Below are positions 2,404-35,682 of a stretch of DNA of 39,333 nt, in pieces. The position numbers were made by a program, and so were the translations under genes. Each line of letters opens with the position of its first letter. The stretch's first letter is position 1. Below the pieces are notes generated by a model. The model did not search any database, was not told the origin of the DNA, and saw only the letters and a list, made by a program, of their open reading frames with translations. The DNA comes from Roseospira navarrensis (GTDB lineage Bacteria > Pseudomonadota > Alphaproteobacteria > Rhodospirillales > Rhodospirillaceae): the NCBI RefSeq assembly GCF_009601025.1, contig NZ_WIVE01000038.1, positions 1-39,333 of the forward strand. The letters run 5' to 3'.

Positions 2404-3420
2404 ATGAGCCAACGAGACACACTGCAGGAATGGCTGGACGGGCAGGTCGTCGGCCTTCAGGCCGGACAGGCCGTGGCCGACGCCATTCTGGCGCTGGCCG
2501 ACGGCGCCCGGCGGATCACCGCCCTCATCCGGCAGGGTCATCTGCTTGAGCGGGATCCGGACGAGTGGTCCATCCAGACCGTTCTGGAGGATGGCGCCAA
2601 CACCATCCTGCGGGAGGTGGCGGAGAGCGCTCCGGTGGCGCACTACGCGTCGGAGGATCACGGAGACGTGATCGTTCTGGACTCCGATGGGCCGCTCGCC
2701 CTGGCCGTCGATCCGCTGGACGGGGCCTCGCACCTGGACGCCAACGTGGTCACGGGCACGATCTTCTCGCTGTATCCCAAGGCGGCCGATCCCGTCGCCT
2801 CGTTCGTCCGTTCCGGACGCGACCTGCTGGTGGCGGGCTATGCGATGTACGGCCCGCGCACGGTGCTGGTGCTCACGCTGGGGCACGGGGCGGCCAAGTT
2901 CACCCTGGACCCGGCCACGGACCGCTTCCTGCTGACGCAGCCGACCATGAAGACCCCGGAGGATGCCGACAAGTTCGCCATCAACGCCGCGAACTACCGC
3001 CACTGGGAGCCGCCCGTCCGCGCCTATATCGACGACTGCATCGAGGGTCGCGACGGGCCCCGCGACAAGGACTTCCGGATGCGTTGGGCGTCCTCGCTGG
3101 TGGCGGAGGCCCATCGGATCCTGACCCTGGGCGGCGTGTTCCTGTACCCGCGCGACAGCCGGCCGGGCCGCCAGAAGGGCACACTCCGCCGGGTGTTCGA
3201 TGCCGTCCCGATCGCCATGATCGCCGAGCAGTGCGGCGCCGCCGCCACCGACGGCGCCCGCCCGATCCTGGATGCGGTCCCCGAGGGCCTGCACGACCGC
3301 GCGCCGCTGGTGTTCGGATCCCGGATGAAGGTCGAGCGGGTCCAGCGCTACCATCAGGACCCGGACTTCGCCACCGACGCGGCGCCGCTGTTCGGCGTCC
3401 GCGGCCTGTTCCGGGGCTGA
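2404..3420 (+). CDS. cbbF: Class I fructose-1,6-bisphosphatase
   Basis: Hydrolyses fructose 1,6-bisphosphate (and often sedoheptulose 1,7-bisphosphate) in the regeneration arm of the Calvin cycle; a soluble Mg-dependent enzyme. The protein is 338 residues, as expected for class I. The metal-binding signature appears as DPLDGASHLD at residues 103-112, a variant of the common DPLDGSSN. SEDHGD around residue 84 and a C-terminal GGAA-type segment (EQCGAAATDG, then GSRMKVER) complete the fold. AGGGAGGG sits 10 bases before the ATG. It is the first gene of the operon, followed 69 bases later by cbbP. Both the Ser-to-Ala and Asn-to-His changes inside the signature are seen in proteobacterial CbbF-like sequences, so activity is likely. 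Confidence 0.93.
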   Translation: MSQRDTLQEWLDGQVVGLQAGQAVADAILALADGARRITALIRQGHLLERDPDEWSIQTVLEDGANTILREVAESAPVAHYASEDHGDVIVLDSDGPLALAVDPLDGASHLDANVVTGTIFSLYPKAADPVASFVRSGRDLLVAGYAMYGPRTVLVLTLGHGAAKFTLDPATDRFLLTQPTMKTPEDADKFAINAANYRHWEPPVRAYIDDCIEGRDGPRDKDFRMRWASSLVAEAHRILTLGGVFLYPRDSRPGRQKGTLRRVFDAVPIAMIAEQCGAAATDGARPILDAVPEGLHDRAPLVFGSRMKVERVQRYHQDPDFATDAAPLFGVRGLFRG

Positions 3421-27160: not shown

Positions 27161-28012
27161 ATGACGGTGGGACTGGACCGCATCCGTCGAACGCGCGGCC
27201 GTCGGGGCCTAAGCCTGGGGCTGGTGGCGCTCTGCGCCGCGCTGGTGCTCCAGGGCTGTGCGTCCAGCCAGGACGGGCGCGGCGGTGCGACGGGCGCCGG
27301 GCCGGGCGGCCAGGACGAGGCCCTCTATCAGGCCCTCGCCCAGATGGCCCAGACCAGCGAGGCGAACAACAAGTACGACCTGGCCGTCGATCAGTACCGC
27401 CGTCTGGTCGAGGCGAGCCCCGAGGAACCGGCATATATTCTGGGGCTGGCGCGGAACCTGCGCTACCTCGGCCGGCCGCAGGAGGCCGTTCGGACCCTGC
27501 GCCGCGCCATCGTGGAAGACCGGCTCGACGAGACGCTGGACGCGCGGCTGGAACTGGCGCGGGCTCTCATGGCCGTCGGGGCCAGCGTCGATGCGTCCAA
27601 CCAGGTCGCCGACCTCATGAACAGCGCGCCGGGCGACCCCCGGGTGCTCGCCCTGGTGGGCATCCTGGCGGATCGCGAGGGGCGCCATGCCGAGGCCCAG
27701 GCGGCCTATCGGGCCGCCATGGCCGCCGATCCCTCCGATCTGCGCAGCGCCAACAATCTGGCCCTGTCTTTGGCTCTGACCGGGGATCTGACACAGGCGA
27801 TCCAGGTCCAGACCGAGGTGGCCAGCGATTCCCGCGCGACCCTGCCCATGCGGCAAAACCTGGCCCTGCTCTACGCCGTGGCCGGGCGCATGGACATGGC
27901 GGAGCGGGTGACCCGCGCCATCCTGCCGCAGGCCCAGGCCGATCGCGTGGTGGCCGACCTCGCGCGGCTGCAGGGCCGGGGGTCAATTCCGGCGCCGTCC
28001 CTCCAGCCCTGA
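27161..28012 (+). CDS. TPR-repeat lipoprotein (TadD-like)
   Basis: A 283-residue exported protein with a lipobox LQGC (Cys33) after a basic, hydrophobic signal peptide, then several tetratricopeptide repeats from about residue 55 (YDLAVDQYRRLVEASPEEP, YLGRPQEAVRTLRRAI, RHAEAQAAYRAAMAADPSD, and so on). This resembles TadD-type lipoproteins of Flp pilus systems, but no other tad genes are present, so only the general class is claimed. Start at 27161 with GAGGTGAGGGG just upstream, overlapping the crp stop. The last 30 bases overlap the 3' end of the convergent oxygenase gene. Confidence 0.85.
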   Translation: MTVGLDRIRRTRGRRGLSLGLVALCAALVLQGCASSQDGRGGATGAGPGGQDEALYQALAQMAQTSEANNKYDLAVDQYRRLVEASPEEPAYILGLARNLRYLGRPQEAVRTLRRAIVEDRLDETLDARLELARALMAVGASVDASNQVADLMNSAPGDPRVLALVGILADREGRHAEAQAAYRAAMAADPSDLRSANNLALSLALTGDLTQAIQVQTEVASDSRATLPMRQNLALLYAVAGRMDMAERVTRAILPQAQADRVVADLARLQGRGSIPAPSLQP

Positions 28013-28903
28013 TCCCGCCGGTGGTCGCTCAGGTGGCGGGGAGAGGGTCGCGCCCGTCTCCCCCGTCTCCAAAGACTCGAACCACGCCCATTGCACCTCG
28101 CCGCCGGCGGCATCCACCATCGGCGCGCCGCGCCCCGCGTCCAGGTCCGCCCGCCACACGGACCGCGTATCCAGGCTGAAGCGCGCGCGCTCCGTGTCGG
28201 TCGCCCGGCTCGCATGCAGGTGGGCCCCCGCGAACATGAGCAGGTCGCCCGGGTCGATCAGCACCGGCACGGCGTCCTCGTCCGGAACCGGCCGCGTGAC
28301 GCTGGGCAGCAGGGGATAGCCGTCCGGATGGCCGGCACGGGTCCGCGCGCGCAGCGTCTCCAGGCTCCATGTGCCGGAGTCGTTCTCCACCGGCACCGCG
28401 AACAGGTGCGGCCACAGCACCATCGTGCGATCCGCTGACACCGGGCGGATCGGAGCCCACCAGTTGACCTGCATGGCGATACCGGACCCCCAAGTGTCCC
28501 GGTGCACGGGGACGATGCTACCGCGCCGGCCGCGCCACGCCGGGCGGACGGCGGCGCTGCGGCCGTTCAGGCGATCGACGAACAGGCTGTCCGCCCTGTA
28601 GCCCAGGGTCTCCATGGTTTCGCGCCAGGTCGCGCGGACCAACGGGTCGGTTGCCAGGGCGGTTCGCCACGCGCCGATGCCGGATCGGAACGCCGCGGGG
28701 TCCAGCCGCTGTTCAGCGGTTTCCGGGTCCGGGTCGTTGAGGGCCGCGCACAGCCGTGTGTTCAGGTGCTCGGTCAGGCGCGCCATGGCGGGAAGGCGGC
28801 GAAACACCAGCAGGTCCCCGGCGAACACCCGACGCGAACGCCGCGCCGGATCCTCGTCCGGCGCGGCGTCCTCGAACACCGGAGGTGGAGCCGCACGGAT
28901 CAC
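27983..28903 (-). CDS. Putative Fe(II)/2-oxoglutarate-type (phytanoyl-CoA dioxygenase-like) oxygenase
   Basis: A 306-residue protein whose central part has the pattern of a cupin-fold iron oxygenase: [11 protein letters not shown] with His134 and Asp136, then [15 protein letters not shown] with a distal His (228 or 230), and ARFSLDTR with Arg241, which could bind 2-oxoglutarate. [19 protein letters not shown] lies between. The GTG start (28901-28903) overlaps the fhs stop by four bases, so it is translationally coupled as the last gene of the folate cassette. I know similar uncharacterised proteins in proteobacteria but no substrate. It could act on the methyl donor, on the demethylated product, or be unrelated. 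The 3' end overlaps the TPR gene. Confidence 0.75.
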
Positions 28904-30669
28904 GTCAAGCCCACGATCTCGCCTCCGGCGTTCAAGCCGATATGCAGCGCCGACGGCTCGCGCGGCAGGCCCGGCATGGTCATGATGTCCCCGCAGATGG
29001 CGACCACGAAGCCCGCGCCGGCGGCCAGCCGCACTTCGCGCACGGGCAGGACATGGCCTTCCGGCGCGCCCTTGGCGTTGGGATCAGCCGAGAAGCTGTA
29101 TTGCGTCTTGGCGATGCACACCGGCAGGTGGCCATATCCCTGCTCGGTGATCTCGGCGATGCCGCGCTGGGCGAGCCAGTCCAGCGAGATGTCGGCGGCG
29201 CCGTACAACTCTCGCGCCACGGTCTGGATCTTGTCCGACAGGGGGGCCTGCTCCTCGTACAGGAAGCGCAGGGTGGGCGCCGGGCCGTCCAGCCGCTCGG
29301 CCACCAGTTCGGCGAGAGCCTCGCTGCCCCGGCTGCCCTCGGCCCAGTGCGAGGCGAGCGCCACGGGTGCCCCCACCGCGTCGCACAGGGCGCGCACGGC
29401 ATCCAGTTCCGCCGCGCTGTCGCCGGTGAAGCGGTTGATGGCCACGACGGGTGAGAGCCCGAATGCCTGCAGGTTGGTCAGGTGGCGGCGCAGATTGGCC
29501 CCGCCGCGCCGGACGGCCTCCGGATCGGGGGTGCCCAGGGCGCCCTTGGCCACGCCGCCGTGCATCTTCAGCGCCCGCACCGTGGCCACCACCACCACCG
29601 CATGGGGCCGCAGGCCGCTTTGCCGGCACTTGATGTGCAGGAACTTCTCGGCGCCCAGATCGGCCCCGAACCCGGCCTCGGTCACCACCACGTCGTTCAG
29701 GCGCAATGCCGTGTCCGTGGCCATGACCGAGTTGCAGCCGTGGGCGATGTTGGCGAACGGACCCCCGTGGATGATGGCGGGGGTGTGCTCCAGCGTCTGC
29801 ACCAGATTGGGGGCGAGCGCGTCCTTCAGCAGCACGGCCATGGCGCCTTCGGCGCCGATGTCGCCGGCGAACACGGGCGTTTTGTCGCGCCGCTGGCCGA
29901 TGACGATGGAGGCCAGCCGCCGTTCCAGGTCGGCCATGTCCGACGCGAGGCAGAGGATGGCCATGACCTCGGACGCCACCGTGATGTCGAACCCGGCCTC
30001 GCGCGGCACCCCATGCGCCGGGCCGCCCAGCCCGACGGTGATGTTGCGCAAGGCCCGGTCGTTCATGTCCATGACCCGGCGCCAGGAGACGCGGCGCACG
30101 TCCAGGTCCTGTTCGTTGCCCCAGTGAAGATGGTTGTCGATCAGCGCGGACAGCAGGTTGTGGGCCGTGCCGATGGCATGGAAATCGCCGGTGAAGTGGA
30201 GGTTGATGTCCTCCATGGGGATCACCTGGGCGCGCCCGCCGCCGGCCGCACCGCCCTTCATGCCGAAGCAGGGGCCGAGCGAGGGCTCCCGCAGGCAGAT
30301 CGATGCCTTGCGCCCGATGCGCGACAGGCCGTCGCCCAGACCGACGGTGGTGGTGGTCTTGCCCTCGCCGGCCGGCGTCGGCGTGATGGCGGTGACCAGC
30401 ACCAGCTTGCCCCGGGGCCGTGTGCGCAGGCTCTCCACATAGTCGAGCGCGATCTTGGCCTTGGTGTGGCCGTAGGGGATGAGGGACTGCGACGGGATAT
30501 CCAGCGTCTCGGCGGCCAGATCCAGGATCGCCCTTGGGCGGGCCGCGCGGGCGATCTCGATGTCGGGCGCGCCCGGCGGTGGCAGACCGTCGCTCGGGTC
30601 GGAGTCGGGGGCGCTCCCGGCCCGCGTGTCGAAGGGGGCGTGGTGGCGTGCGCTGATCTGATGGGACAT
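28900..30669 (-). CDS. fhs: Formate--tetrahydrofolate ligase
   Basis: ATP + formate + THF to 10-formyl-THF, or the reverse with ATP gain when one-carbon units are oxidised. The 589-residue protein has the P-loop-like TPAGEGKTT at residues 98-106, [36 protein letters not shown], and the C-terminal [10 protein letters not shown]. The first 35 or so residues (His, Ser, Pro-rich) extend beyond the usual N-terminus, whose conserved part starts DIEIARAA. Start chosen at ATG 30669, preceded by GGGAG eight bases upstream; an in-frame ATG at 30684 lacks a site. It lies between the MetF-like gene and the oxygenase on one strand. Confidence 0.95.
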
Positions 30670-30766
30670 TCCGACGTCTCCCATGGCCCACAGTCGGGCC
30701 GATAAGCCGGCGGCCGTCCAACCTCGACGGTCCGCCCGTGGCCGCGTGGGGTCCTGGCCAGGCTGA

Positions 30767-31672
30767 TCAGGTCTCCGCCCGCTCGTTCGGCCTGTTCAGA
30801 TGCGCGACCGCCCACGCGGCGGTCCGGGCGAAGCCGCCGAAGGGGAACAGGTGCACCCCGCTCACCATTCCGGCCGCGCCCCGGTCGCGTGCCCTCTCAA
30901 GGTCGCCCACGATGCTGTCCGGTGTCCAGGCGCGCAGCAGGCCGGCCACGACATCGGGGCGTCGGGTCAGCACGCGAAGGCTGTTCCCAACACCGCACTG
31001 TCGCGCATAGGTGATGAGGGTCGCCGGTTTGGCGGGACCCGGCAGCCCGACCCGGATGGGCAGGGTCACGCCGGCGTCCGTCAGGGCAAGGGCCCAGGAC
31101 AGGATGGGGGTGGCGCTGAAGGCGAACTGGGAGACGATCCAAGCCTCCAGACCGTGCGCGGCGGCGAACGCCTGCTTGCGGCGCAGGGCCTCCAGCAGGA
31201 TGGCGGGTCCCGCGTTGGGATGTCCTTCCGGGTGGCCGGCGACACCGAACCCGCGCAGCCCCGCCGTCTCCACCAGCCCGCTGTCCAGGACGGCGAGGGT
31301 ATCCCGGTACGGACCGGCGGGCCGGTCGTTGGAGCCGGCGATCAGCATGATGTCGCGGGCGCCGCCCTCCGACACGGCCCGGTCGAGCCAGTCGGCCAGA
31401 TCGGCGCGGCTTTTCAGGCCGCGCGCCGCCAGATGGGGGACCGGCCGCAGGCCGTCCCGGGCCAGACGCCGGCTGACGGCCATGGCCTCGGCCCGATCGG
31501 TGCCGGGCAGACTGGTGACATAGACGGCGGCGCCCGACGGCAGGAGATCGGCGAAGGACGGGATCTTCGCGGCCACGCCGGGCGTGATTTCCAGCGAGAC
31601 CCCGGCGGAGCCAAGGGGGCGCGCAACCTTTGCGTCCTCGCGTCCCGCCTGCTGCGTGCTGTCGTAGGGCAT
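30767..31672 (-). CDS. Methylenetetrahydrofolate reductase-like protein
   Basis: A 301-residue TIM-barrel flavoprotein of the MetF family. It shows VSLEITP with Glu28 at the place of the catalytic Glu of Met[34 protein letters not shown], and the C-terminal [16 protein letters not shown]. It is a divergent branch; relatives I recall sit beside GcvT/DmdA-like demethylases and probably oxidise 5-methyl-THF to 5,10-methylene-THF. Start chosen at ATG 31672; the frame runs further upstream to 32005 but overlaps the demethylase gene. It lies between that gene and fhs. I withhold the symbol metF because a canonical biosynthetic MetF is probably elsewhere. Confidence 0.85.
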
Positions 31673-31726
31673 CGTCCCGTCGCCTTCCGCATGGGGTGTC
31701 GTGACCGGGGTACGCCGTGAGCCTGG

Positions 31727-31763
31727 GACGACCGGGCAGGGAGGGGGCTCCAGCCCGGTCGTC
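31727..31763 (-). other. Perfect 11-base-pair stem-loop between demethylase and MetF-like genes
   Basis: GACGACCGGGC (31727-31737) and GCCCGGTCGTC (31753-31763) form a perfect stem with a 15-base loop. It lies 10 bases after the demethylase stop on the transcribed strand. There is no T-run. As with the cbbS-cbbX hairpin, it could keep the upstream mRNA stable or reduce read-through into the next gene. Confidence 0.6.
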
Positions 31764-31772
31764 GGAGCGCCC

Positions 31773-33128
31773 TCAGAACGCGCTGTCGCGGCCCTGCGAG
31801 CGGGCCAGTTCCCGGGCGCTGGGATTGGCCGAGGACCGGAACGGCATCGGCACGATCTGGGCGTTGACCGGCTCGCCCGCATGCTCGGCGTATGCGTCGG
31901 GCAGCCATACGGCCAGGCGGGTGCCCTCGTGCCGCATCCCGTAGGGGACGTAGCCCATGGCGATGTTGGTGCCCAGCTCCGGCGAGTACCACGGCGAGGT
32001 GACATAGCCGATGGGATCGCCGGCGTCCTCGCCCGAGATCAGCCAGAAGTCCGGCGCATAGTCGGTGATCGGCTTGCCGCCCAGGGCCATGCCGACGAGC
32101 TGCATCCGGTACGGCTCGCCGCCGGACTCCATCACGGCACGCACCTGCTCAAGGCGGGCCTTGCCGATATAGTCGGCGGTCTTCTTGCGCGGCACCTGAT
32201 ACCCCAGGTTGCACTGGAAGGGCAGGGTCTCCTGATCCAGGTCCTGGCCCCAGGACAGAATGCCGGCCGCGATGCGGCGGTGGTGCGCCGGGGCGATGAC
32301 CATCAGGTTGTGGGCCTTGCCGGCCGCCAGCACCGCGTTCCACATGTCGTCGGCGTACAGGGTGGCGTCGCGCAGATAGATCTCGTAGCCGGCCTCGCCC
32401 GAGAACCCGGTCTGCGAGATGATGACGTCGCGCCCGCCCACGCGGGCGGCCAGAAGGCCATAGTAGGGCACGTCCCGGATCGCCGGGCCGACCAGATCCT
32501 CCATCAGCGCCTGGGACTTGGGCCCCTGGATCTGCACCGGGGCCACGTCGATCTCCTTGATCGAGACGTTCATCTTCAGGCCCAGGTTGACGCCACGAAG
32601 CCACAGCTCCAGGTCGCTGTCGGACAGCGAGAACCAGAACTCGTCCTCGGCGATGCGCAGAAGCACCGGGTCGTTGAGGATCCCGCCGTCTTCGTTGCAG
32701 AGGATGACGTACTTGCCGGCCATCGGCTTGATGCGGGTCACGTCGCGGGTCACGACATAATTGACGAAGGCTTCGGCGTCGGGGCCCTTCACCTGGATCT
32801 GCCGCTCAACCGCCACGTTCCACATGGTGACGTGGTTCACCAGCGCGTCGTATTCGACCATGGCGCCGCCGTCCTCCGGGCGGACGTAGCCGCGCGGGTG
32901 GTACATGCGGTTGTAGACCGTCGCGCGCCAGCACCCGGCCTTGTGGGCCAGATGCCAGTAGGGGGATTTCCGCACCCGGGTGGAGATCAGCATCTGCACC
33001 GGGGTCGGGCCGCTCTGGCGCAGGTTGATCGGCACCGTGCGGTCCGACTGATCGACGGTCGGGCACTGGCCATTGACGACATCCGTCATGGCGGCGAGGG
33101 CGGCTCCGGGAGAGAGAGGCGTGTCCAT
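31773..33128 (-). CDS. DmdA/GcvT-like tetrahydrofolate-dependent demethylase
   Basis: A 451-residue member of the GcvT/DmdA superfamily, enzymes that move a methyl or methylene group from a small substrate to THF. Similarity to DMSP demethylase DmdA is visible by eye: TVYNRM (residues 70-75), MWNVAVERQIQVKG (102-115), GGILNDPVLLRIAEDEFW, SDSDLELW, and QIQGPKSQALM. The chain is about 80 residues longer than DmdA, with an extra N-terminal 40 or so. Start at ATG 33128 with GGAG nine bases upstream. The neighbours MetF-like and Fhs would oxidise the resulting methyl-THF. The substrate is unknown: DMSP, a methylated amine, or a methoxy compound are possible. It is the first gene of the cassette. 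Confidence 0.82.
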   Translation of the reverse strand: MDTPLSPGAALAAMTDVVNGQCPTVDQSDRTVPINLRQSGPTPVQMLISTRVRKSPYWHLAHKAGCWRATVYNRMYHPRGYVRPEDGGAMVEYDALVNHVTMWNVAVERQIQVKGPDAEAFVNYVVTRDVTRIKPMAGKYVILCNEDGGILNDPVLLRIAEDEFWFSLSDSDLELWLRGVNLGLKMNVSIKEIDVAPVQIQGPKSQALMEDLVGPAIRDVPYYGLLAARVGGRDVIISQTGFSGEAGYEIYLRDATLYADDMWNAVLAAGKAHNLMVIAPAHHRRIAAGILSWGQDLDQETLPFQCNLGYQVPRKKTADYIGKARLEQVRAVMESGGEPYRMQLVGMALGGKPITDYAPDFWLISGEDAGDPIGYVTSPWYSPELGTNIAMGYVPYGMRHEGTRLAVWLPDAYAEHAGEPVNAQIVPMPFRSSANPSARELARSQGRDSAF

Positions 33129-33192
33129 GGGTCCGTGCTCCACTGCTGGGATGGGCTTGACCCCTTGACAGTGGACCGCCTCTTCCGATGCC

Positions 33193-33237
33193 ATTTGCTC
33201 AAATCCGACACGCTTTGTCTCACTTCCGTCATTAATG
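33193..33237. promoter_or_regulatory. Cluster of dyads upstream of the C1 cassette
   Basis: ATTTG-CT-CAAAT, GACA-CGCTT-TGTC and the palindrome CATTAATG lie within 45 bases, 65 bases and more before the demethylase start. The clustering suggests an operator region for substrate-dependent control; the regulator is not in the window. Confidence 0.4.
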
Positions 33238-33459
33238 GTCTGACGCGGTGCGCCCCTCCGATCTGGCGCCCGAACCCTCTGAATAAAAAGGCGGAATGGC
33301 CCCCCTGTCGGACCGGCGTGCGCAGCGCTCGGCAATGGCCGAATGAAATGGTCGGGAAAAAGGGGGTGTCCGGGCGCGCGAGTCGCGTCGCATTCGGCCG
33401 GCCGCACAGTCCGGTCCGGACGCGGGGGCTCCCGATTGTTGACATGGCGGTCATGCAAA

Positions 33460-33492
33460 GAACGCGGATTGACGGCCTCAGGCCCCGCGTTC
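33460..33492. repeat. Two-level inverted repeat before the kinase gene
   Basis: GAACGCGG (33460-33467) pairs with CCGCGTTC (33485-33492), and within it GGCC-TCA-GGCC (33474-33484) forms a second stem, leaving a 6-base bulge on one side. It has no T-run and no nearby stop codon. Confidence 0.45.
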
Positions 33493-33649
33493 GGATGTCG
33501 CGGACCGACCGCCATGAATCGGGGGCCGGCTGTTTCTGTTGCACGCGCGGAAGCATCGGTGTCTAGTCGGGGTCTGTCCGGCGGTGGGTCGGTTCTCCGC
33601 CGGTGGGATGGCCCCCGCGTCCTGTTTTCCGCCCCAGACGATGTGGTTC

Positions 33650-35682
33650 ATGGCCCGATCCGTTGTCCCGTCCATCGCCCATGGCCGTTTCCGGCGGATC
33701 CGGTGCGCCGTGTCCGGGGGCGTCACGTCCGCCCTGGCCCTGGGCCTGGTCCTCGTTCTGCTGGTGGCGATCGGCGGCGGTGACGCGCTGGCAAACGAAA
33801 AGACGCGCGATCTCGACACCGGGTGGGAGTATCGGTGGGGCGACTCCGCGTTCAACGGCAAGGGGACGCCCGTCTGGGCCTTCGAGGATGCGGCCGGGTC
33901 ATGGCACGACATCAGGTTTCCGTCCAACCCGCCGGGACGGGAGGGACGCAGCAACGTCTGGTACCGGATCACGCTGCCGGACGGCGAATGGCGCGATCCG
34001 GTGCTGTATGTCTTCAGCATCGATCTGATTGCCGAGTTCTATCTTGAGGGCCGCCTGATCTACCGCCATGGGCAGTTCGATGGCGAGGGGCAAGGCACGT
34101 TCGAGGGGTGGCCCTGGCACATGATAGATCTGCCGCCCGATTTCGGCGGCAAGCGGCTTTCTGTCCGCGTGTGGTCCGATTCCTACGACATCGGGCTATG
34201 GGGCGAGGTCAAGGTCATGGAGCGCCTGGACCTGCTCCGGCATGTGGCGGACGGGGCCATGGTGCCGGTCGTGGTCAGCGCGCTGTCGCTGGTGCTGGCG
34301 ATCGTGGCCGGGGCGCTGGCCCTGGTGCAACCTCTGATGGCCCGCATCCATGGTTTGATTGGCATCTTCACCCTGCTGGCCGGGGTCATGGTTCTGGCCC
34401 AAAGTCAGGCCAGCCAGTTCCTGATCCACGACGCGATGGTGTCGAGCCAAATTGGCGCCGCCGCCTACTTCCTGCTGCCCGTTCCCATGGCCCTGCTGCT
34501 TCACGGGATGTGCTGGGGCCGCGCCGTCCAGGTGGTGGACTGGGTGTGGCGGGGGCATCTGGCCTATGCGGTCGGGGCCATCGGGGCGTCGGTGGCCGGT
34601 CTGGCGGCCCTGTCGGACCTGTATCCCGTGTTCGACGGGCTGTTGACCGTCTCGCTGATCATCCTGGTTCTGGCCGGTGCCCGCTGGATCGCGGAGGCCG
34701 ACCGGGTGGAGCAGGTCACCTTCGCCGGCTTCGTGGTGTTCGGCGGGTTCCTGATGATCGACATGGGCGTGGCGCACGGGGTCCTGCCCTGGACGCGCAT
34801 GCCGCTGGCGCTGGGTCTGCTGGCGTTCTCCGCCATGCTGATCGGCCTGTCCCTCGTCACGTTCGCGCGCACTCACCGGGCGCTGCGGCACCTGACCGTG
34901 ACCCTGGACCAGAAGGTGCGGGACCGGACGCGGGACCTTGAGCATTCGAACGCCGAATTGCAGCAGTTCGCGTCGGTGATCTCCCACGACCTGCAGGCGC
35001 CGCTGCGTCTGATCTCCGGCAACCTCTCGCTGCTCTCGCGGCGATACGGAGCGACGCTGACCGAGGAGGGCCGGGCCGAGATTGCGGAGGCGAAGGCGGC
35101 CGCCCGCCGCATGGCGGGCATGATCCAGGGCGTGCTGGACTACGCGCGGATCGAGAGCCAGGGCGCCGCCTTTGATCGGGTCGAAACCGGCGCTGTGCTC
35201 CAGGATGCGCTGGCGGATCTGTCGGCGGACCGGGAGCGTGTCGGGACCACCATCAAGGCCGACCCCCTGCCGCCCCTGCGCGGTGATCGCACCCAGATCC
35301 GGCGGCTGTTTCAGAACCTTGTCGGCAACGCGCTCAAGTACCGGCGCGAGGGCGCGCCGCCGCATGTGCGGATCTCCGCGCGGCCCTCGGACAGGGACGG
35401 CTGGGTGGTTCTGTCGGTGGCCGACAACGGACGCGGCATTTCGCCTGAGGACTGGCCCGATGCCCTCTCAAGCTGTTGCGGCGGCTGCCGTCGCCCGGCG
35501 ATGGCGCGCTGCCAGGGGAGGAGGGCACGGGCCTGGGACTGCCGATCTGCAAGCGGATCGCCGAGCGCCACGGGGGCGCCCTGTGGATGGAACCCACCCC
35601 CGGCGGCGGCCTGACCGTGCTGGTCCGCCTGCCCGTGGCCGCTCAGGAGCCGGATGGCGCGCCGGCGTCGGCGGCCGGTTGA
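33650..35682 (+). pseudogene. 7TM-DISM sensor histidine kinase with a single-base frameshift
   Basis: Domain order: signal peptide (ALALGLVLVLLVAIGGGDALA), periplasmic 7TMR-DISM extracellular domain (about residues 50-185), seven membrane helices (about 200-405), HisKA with His446 in VISHDLQAPLRLI, and a HATPase domain with LVGNALKYR and VADNGRGI. The frame then fails at about 35468. The next box, [18 protein letters not shown], is found in another frame and runs to the TGA at 35680-35682. Adding one T in CTCTCAAG would read [13 protein letters not shown] and restore a 677-residue kinase. Without it the protein ends with unrelated residues at 35614 and lacks the ATP lid and G2 box. It may be a real mutation or a sequencing error. 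The start at 33650 is uncertain (33641 and 33608 are alternatives). Confidence 0.8.

Follow-up and report, generated by a model that had tools for sequence, protein, structure and literature searches.

A four-gene operon of Roseospira navarrensis may oxidize the first methyl group of glycine betaine through tetrahydrofolate

We analyzed a 39,333-nucleotide stretch of the Roseospira navarrensis genome (contig NZ_WIVE01000038.1; hereafter the window) and found four consecutive genes on its minus strand, reading from position 33128 to position 27983, that appear to oxidize folate-bound methyl groups. On balance, we lean toward the view that this operon strips the first methyl group of glycine betaine onto tetrahydrofolate (THF) and oxidizes it, judging from the protein families and gene neighborhoods described below. 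The first gene (31773..33128, ATG start) encodes DMD, a DmdA/GcvT-like THF methyltransferase of 451 amino acids that carries PF01571 and PF08669. It is followed by the genes for a 301-amino-acid protein resembling methylenetetrahydrofolate reductase (MTHFR) (30767..31672, ATG), for the 594-amino-acid formate-THF ligase Fhs (28900..30684, ATG), and for OXY, a PhyH-like Fe(II)/2-oxoglutarate (2OG) oxygenase of 306 amino acids (27983..28903, GTG). The first two genes are separated by 100 bases and the next two by 82 bases, and the OXY start overlaps the fhs stop as GTGA. An earlier note on this DNA had described this cassette, and its open reading frames (ORFs), starts, stops, and overlap were all confirmed. 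The grouping is not due to chance, because runs of DMD, MTHFR, and Fhs and runs of DMD and OXY recur in other genomes. A sigma-70 scan of positions 27800-33700 returned no promoter (shuffled sequences gave 0.2), and no Rfam family reached its gathering score across the window, where one sub-threshold match (E value of 0.23) lies upstream of DMD.

In the proposed route, DMD would convert glycine betaine and THF to dimethylglycine and 5-methyl-THF, and the cassette MTHFR, given its likely subfamily, would oxidize 5-methyl-THF to 5,10-methylene-THF. FolD, which is not part of the cassette, would then produce 10-formyl-THF, from which Fhs, presumably running in reverse, would release formate and ATP; these last two steps are known chemistry of the FolD and Fhs families. 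The dimethylglycine would be handed to dimethylglycine dehydrogenase (DMGDH)-type and sarcosine-oxidase enzymes encoded elsewhere in the source genome, and the methylene-THF formed there would join the same route. The general scheme of the earlier note, namely, that methyl groups are moved to THF, oxidized, and released as formate, is supported.

Glycine betaine is proposed as the methyl donor because of the genes that surround DMD in other genomes. The loci of the best 80 of 591 DMD relatives (66 to 91% identical) and the window gave 81 loci, which were joined at 88% identity into 36 groups; loci L001 to L008 of the source genome stand outside this set. The titles among these best 80 name alpha- and gammaproteobacteria, actinobacteria, SAR86, HIMB59, and one Opitutae metagenome-assembled genome. 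Neighbors were named by their best BLAST hit to a reference protein. Among these references, SoxB was above its curated cut-off, SoxA was just below (1122/1164), GbdR (385/480) and the electron-transfer flavoprotein (ETF) subunits were below, and the HIMB59-type DMGDH was named by its domains (DAO, FAO_M, GCV_T, and GCV_T_C). A DMGDH-type gene was present at the locus in 22 of the 36 groups, the chance per locus being about 1% (from the density of 3 per 4.4 Mb in the source genome). An MTHFR gene nearest to that of the window occurred in 16 groups and one nearest to a haloarchaeal MTHFR in 3, while Fhs was found in 12, soxA-like genes in 9, soxB-like genes in 8, GbdR-like genes in 5, and ETF alpha and ETF beta in 4 each. 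Taken together, 23/36 groups carried at least one glycine betaine marker. The neighborhood evidence hence points to glycine betaine instead of lignin methoxy groups or dimethylsulfoniopropionate (DMSP), two methyl sources mentioned in the earlier note.

Individual loci add further detail. In Rhodospira trueperi (DMD 91% identical), soxA, the DMGDH-type gene, DMD, and MTHFR occupy the same strand of a region of about 10 kb. Sixteen of the 30 plasmid records that matched DMD were haloarchaeal, with 55 to 63% identity, and the neighborhoods of two of these 16 were read. A 25-kb stretch of a Haloarcula hispanica plasmid carries a 59% DMD homolog, an MTHFR gene, two genes for FAD oxidoreductases of about 850 amino acids, and a BCCT transporter gene; the Halomicrococcus plasmid locus harbors MTHFR, FolD-like, and BCCT genes, and no DMGDH gene was seen in the 21 kb read. 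At L180 and L181, from genomes of 1.2 to 1.3 Mb, the gene adjoining the MTHFR-DMD pair encodes a Rieske oxygenase of about 124 bits against the GbcA cut-off of 670.

The source genome also encodes candidates for the later steps. One contig (C120) carries soxB, soxA, a DMGDH-type gene, and two GbdR-like genes (192 and 371 bits; cut-off, 480), and on another (C145) a DMGDH-type gene stands behind OpuAC, ProV-type, and ChoW-type genes, those three above their cut-offs. No Rieske oxygenase of family PF00848 was found in the source genome (98.4% completeness), and GbcA is therefore missing; at the same completeness, no MttB was found either. We then turned to a sample of 337 genomes of the class, searched at E values of 1e-120 for DMD, 1e-10 for OXY, and 1e-100 for GbcA-like proteins and compared by Fisher tests that ignore relatedness. 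DMD was present in 16 genomes, and the DMGDH marker FAO_M was found in all 16 of these compared with 116/337 genomes overall (p of 1.9e-8, relatedness ignored). Within the window, a class 1 fructose-bisphosphatase gene (2404-3420, plus strand) scoring above its cut-off is compatible with what the earlier note remarked on CO2 fixation.

The sequence of DMD sets it apart from the characterized families. Both its GCV_T and GCV_T_C domains are above the curated Pfam cut-offs, but the protein scored below the cut-offs of the models for DmdA (NF009133; 270.8 bits, cut-off of 410), GcvT (155 bits against 300 for NF001567 and 137.5 bits against 235.85 for TIGR00528), LigM (31.2 bits against 580), and DesA (45.2 bits against 800). 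The trimethylamine N-oxide demethylase model NF053776 gave 171.2 bits (cut-off, 1100) and matched through its C-terminal domain alone. In a 40-row tree, from which ten DMD rows were omitted for speed, DMD belonged to a clade of 22 rows (support of 100/99) consisting of 19 DMD rows, two haloarchaeal plasmid proteins, and one 54% relative. Its sister was a six-row group (97/85) of two annotated DmdA proteins, the only ones used, and 32 to 38% paralogs, the joint clade being supported at 98/96; DMD was placed outside the DmdA clade. The GcvT of the source genome and the GcvT domains of sarcosine-oxidase and DMGDH-type proteins formed a separate group (99/85) with DMD outside, and a LigM-like row (501 bits, itself below the LigM cut-off) was remote from DMD, the GcvT and LigM-like rows being long branches of unsure exact position. 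As the earlier note had suspected, the demethylase is neither an obvious LigM nor a standard DmdA, since it is below both cut-offs and in its own clade. A position inside the GcvT clade, which the note had named as evidence against its proposal, is not what the tree gives. The clade extends over alpha- and gammaproteobacteria, actinobacteria, and haloarchaeal plasmids.

Alignment A2, which includes 29 of the 81 DMD loci (L079 was excluded, as its stretch held a stop), provided further information on the active site. The NDP motif was found in 31/31 DMD-clade rows and in both DmdA rows, and the source-genome GcvT has DDL at that site. The aspartate of the GcvT DD motif is catalytic, and its replacement by NDP, as in DmdA, fits the transfer of a methyl rather than a methylene group by a putative demethylase such as DMD. 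At the position of the DMSP-contacting residue W171 (as given in the available part of PMC7487153), all 31 DMD-clade rows carry Phe and both roseobacter DmdA rows carry Tyr. This Trp/Phe position was tried as a signature of DMSP use and dropped: with Tyr in the roseobacter DmdA rows, it does not define DmdA. The closest fold to the DMD model (pLDDT of 66) was that of Pelagibacter ubique DmdA (3tfh; 27% identity).

More distant paralogs were also encountered. The source genome has a second DmdA/GcvT-like gene (C115:12872-13465; L008, L098), 39% identical to DMD over 222 amino acids and with LMDG at the LNDP site of DMD. Two roseobacter plasmids (L091 and L155) encode a 38 to 40% paralog together with OsmC, enoyl-CoA hydratase, and acyl-CoA synthetase, an arrangement that resembles an alternative DMSP-type cluster. 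On a plasmid of Phaeobacter sp. G2 (L156, 4995-6113), a 32% paralog lies by arsB, arsJ, and a trimethylamine methyltransferase family gene and perhaps uses an arsenic-linked methyl donor.

The MTHFR-like protein matched PDB entry 7xg9, a 5,10-methylenetetrahydrofolate reductase, over residues 24-290 (E value of 1.8e-52, 182 bits), the next MTHFR in the PDB being 1v93 (31.5 bits; E value of 1.3e-6), and it had no Pfam match at an E value of 0.001, PF02219 included. We take 7xg9 to be the MTHFR of Sphingobium SYK-6. The accessible text of PMC13001107 describes an SYK-6 MTHFR subfamily that favors methyl-THF oxidation and has a LigM-type demethylase as its partner. A second MTHFR, with PF02219, is encoded elsewhere in the source genome adjoining a MetH-sized gene, which would leave the cassette MTHFR free for catabolism. 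Fhs was above both of its cut-offs (FTHFS PF01268, 850 bits; NF010030, 865 bits against 652).

OXY had no Pfam match at an E value of 0.001 and no curated family above cut-off. Residues H134-R-D136, H228, H230, R241, and R247 were invariant in all five members of alignment A1. An AlphaFold model of OXY (pLDDT of 67, pTM of 0.72) had its best Foldseek match in PtlH (E value of 4.1e-6, probability of 1.00, TM of 0.48 and 0.54), and the Fe/2OG oxygenases that it matched are presumably PhyH-type. Judged from this model, OXY displays the HxD...H triad, the 2OG-binding arginine, and the fold that characterize PhyH-type Fe(II)/2OG oxygenases. It shares fold and HxD...H...R site with PtlH, SptF, KanJ, and FtmOx1 but is only 13 to 18% identical to them, so that their substrates are not transferable.

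With respect to distribution, OXY was present in 5 of the 36 DMD groups and lies in the DMD run in the window, at L012, L062, L070, and L076, and in G247 and G184. In G016, it adjoins soxB, soxA, and DMGDH-type genes, and in two HIMB59-like genomes, it occupies the opposite end of a soxB-soxA-DMGDH-MTHFR-DMD run. Across the class sample, OXY occurred in 19 genomes, comprising 8/16 with DMD and 11/321 without (p of 2.0e-7, relatedness ignored); the 8 genomes with both represent seven families, and the two genes are at most about 10 kb apart in five of them and far apart or on different contigs in three. In a tree that excludes the near-copies L150 and L151, the OXY of the window fell into a supported clade of five (98/91), every member of which is in a DMD run. 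The label "in glycine betaine cluster" required at least 5 changes on this tree, a number reached or undercut in 7/500 shuffles, with well-supported branches forcing just 1. OXY is thus a recurrent, optional partner of DMD clusters. The earlier note had ventured that the oxygenase is part of the cassette and that its absence beside the demethylase in all relatives would count against this. It does share DMD runs in other lineages, and in this respect, the idea stands; however, the search of the two nearest relatives, Rhodospira L009 and L010, covered their 17-kb loci only and turned up no OXY there, and for this reason, OXY looks accessory. OXY homologs without DMD were located near ClpX, peptide-transporter, or cydAB genes, and neither these contexts nor the fold matches revealed a substrate. 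On two Aminobacter plasmids (L176 and L177), the homologs, annotated as hypothetical, directly follow cydAB, and matches occur on nine Aminobacter plasmid records.

Could OXY be a mere hitchhiker in some copies of the operon, unrelated to the pathway? Its homologs outside DMD contexts, the Rhodospira loci, the half of the DMD genomes that lack it, and the three genomes in which the two genes are separated would agree with this. The strong enrichment in DMD genomes and the five-member clade confined to DMD runs, together with the low number of label changes, argue against it, and we regard a hitchhiker as rather unlikely. We thus consider it probable that OXY belongs to this pathway, where an N-methylated amino acid or some other betaine would be its most likely substrate. 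A related alternative is that DMD itself acts on another quaternary amine, examples being proline betaine, homarine, trigonelline, carnitine, and the head group of a betaine lipid. In that case, OXY or a Rieske enzyme would act on the same compound as DMD, and the DMGDH homolog would oxidize the product. The occurrence of OXY in the DMD runs of several lineages and of a non-GbcA Rieske enzyme in two genomes suggests an oxygenase chemistry that plain glycine betaine would not need, and DMGDH-type proteins have several substrates. Nevertheless, glycine betaine fits the GbdR-like, sarcosine-oxidase-like, BCCT, or ProV-type genes that share a cluster or genome with DMD, and OXY is restricted to a small minority of DMD groups, which makes this alternative improbable.

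Even less probable is a sulfur compound as substrate, either DMSP or, in a second DMSP demethylation, methylmercaptopropionate. No known structure is nearer to DMD than that of DmdA, the tree unites DMD with DmdA and its paralogs against GcvT, and an enoyl-CoA hydratase, the superfamily to which DmdD belongs, is encoded near DMD at L180 and L181. Moreover, a DMSP-derived substrate is proposed for SAR11_1265 beside metF in the available part of PMC3160333. Opposed to this are the DmdA model score, the separate clade, and the presence of DMD in haloarchaea and actinobacteria. In addition, the acyl-CoA synthetase and enoyl-CoA hydratase genes flank DmdA or the 38 to 40% roseobacter paralogs and were not among the 11 annotated of the 53 DMD neighbor clusters listed, some of which are antisense ORFs. 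Finally, methoxy groups of aromatic compounds could be the substrate of the cassette, as they are for ligM-metF-ligH of Sphingobium; the three-step one-carbon logic is identical, and the PDB entry closest to the cassette MTHFR, 7xg9, would come from that genus. The LigM and DesA scores, the remote LigM-like row, and the absence of aromatic-degradation genes from the 11 annotated clusters render this highly improbable. Model scores, clade, and neighbors led us to reject both the lignin-methoxy and the plain DMSP readings.

Several observations weigh against glycine betaine as the substrate. The glycine betaine genes of the source genome sit on contigs other than that of the window, and a 286-amino-acid homocysteine S-methyltransferase-like protein encoded in this genome (130 bits; cut-off, 215) could serve as BHMT. 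DMGDH-type genes are common in the class anyway, and GbcA-like genes (23 genomes, none over the cut-off) were not depleted in the presence of DMD (1/16 versus 22/321; p of 1.0). Thirteen of the 36 DMD groups had no glycine betaine marker at their loci, and of their first loci, 5 are shorter than 13 kb and 8 are not. No such marker was detected at L187 to L189 with the reference proteins used, L180 and L181 carry the non-GbcA Rieske enzyme and the enoyl-CoA hydratase near DMD, and at L182, a thiamine-diphosphate enzyme and a hydroxyacid-dehydrogenase-like gene are found instead. The DMD model is weak, and pocket residues could not be judged from it. For SAR11, the accessible part of PMC3160333 names BHMT as the enzyme of the first glycine betaine step and postulates a role in glycine betaine metabolism for another aminomethyltransferase (AMT), SAR11_1303; should SAR11_1265 fall in the DMD clade, it would not necessarily catalyze the first step in SAR11.

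Among known systems, DmdA (3tfh) is the best structural match of DMD and shares its fold, its THF-binding GCV_T domain, and the NDP motif; it differs in length (369 versus 451 amino acids), clade, and neighbors. LigM, MetF, and LigH of Sphingobium SYK-6 combine a demethylase, a methyl-THF-oxidizing MTHFR, and an Fhs, the logic seen in the window cassette, but their demethylase comes from another branch and, on the evidence, uses a different methyl donor. SAR11_1265 of "Ca. Pelagibacter ubique" is, according to the available text of PMC3160333, a DmdA-like AMT of unknown substrate beside metF (SAR11_1264), and it probably belongs to the same family as DMD. Unlike in the window cassette, its fhs is a separate gene (SAR11_1285), its suggested substrate is the guessed DMSP product, and no oxygenase is mentioned in that portion of the paper. 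The same source reports that SAR11 oxidizes the labeled methyl groups of glycine betaine to CO2. For SAR11_1264 and SAR11_1265, the accessible part of PMC5069961 lists decreases of 0.20/0.12 and 0.10/0.10 in one and the same pair of columns.

The enzymes named for the aerobic conversion of glycine betaine to dimethylglycine in the available part of PMC12093977 are GbcAB and BHMT. DMD would catalyze this same step, but GbcAB is a Rieske system that releases formaldehyde and BHMT requires homocysteine, while DMD would need THF alone and keep the methyl group as methyl-THF. The use of glycine betaine is suspected in some haloarchaea on the basis of dimethylglycine-oxidase-like and BCCT genes, with the first enzyme left unnamed in the accessible text of PMC3102087. 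Our literature search, of which subscription papers and preprints were mostly outside the range and may hold such a report, returned no paper in whose available text the DMD family is assigned to glycine betaine or a THF-dependent glycine betaine demethylase is named.

As an osmolyte, glycine betaine is very common in the sea and in saline places (available parts of PMC3160333 and PMC12093977). We tentatively put forward, as a possibility somewhat short of an even chance, that DMD represents a third aerobic first step. It would be a glycine betaine demethylase that depends on THF and is distributed over bacteria and haloarchaea, and its link to a methyl-THF-oxidizing MTHFR and a reverse-running Fhs would let the methyl group yield ATP with no free formaldehyde; the 2OG oxygenase would be dedicated to opening a further betaine or N-methyl substrate to this operon. 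If this is true, genomes that apparently cannot begin glycine betaine breakdown could be complete, and DmdA-like genes may be miscounted as DMSP genes. Furthermore, an aminomethyltransferase published in 2011 without a known substrate would become testable in one assay.

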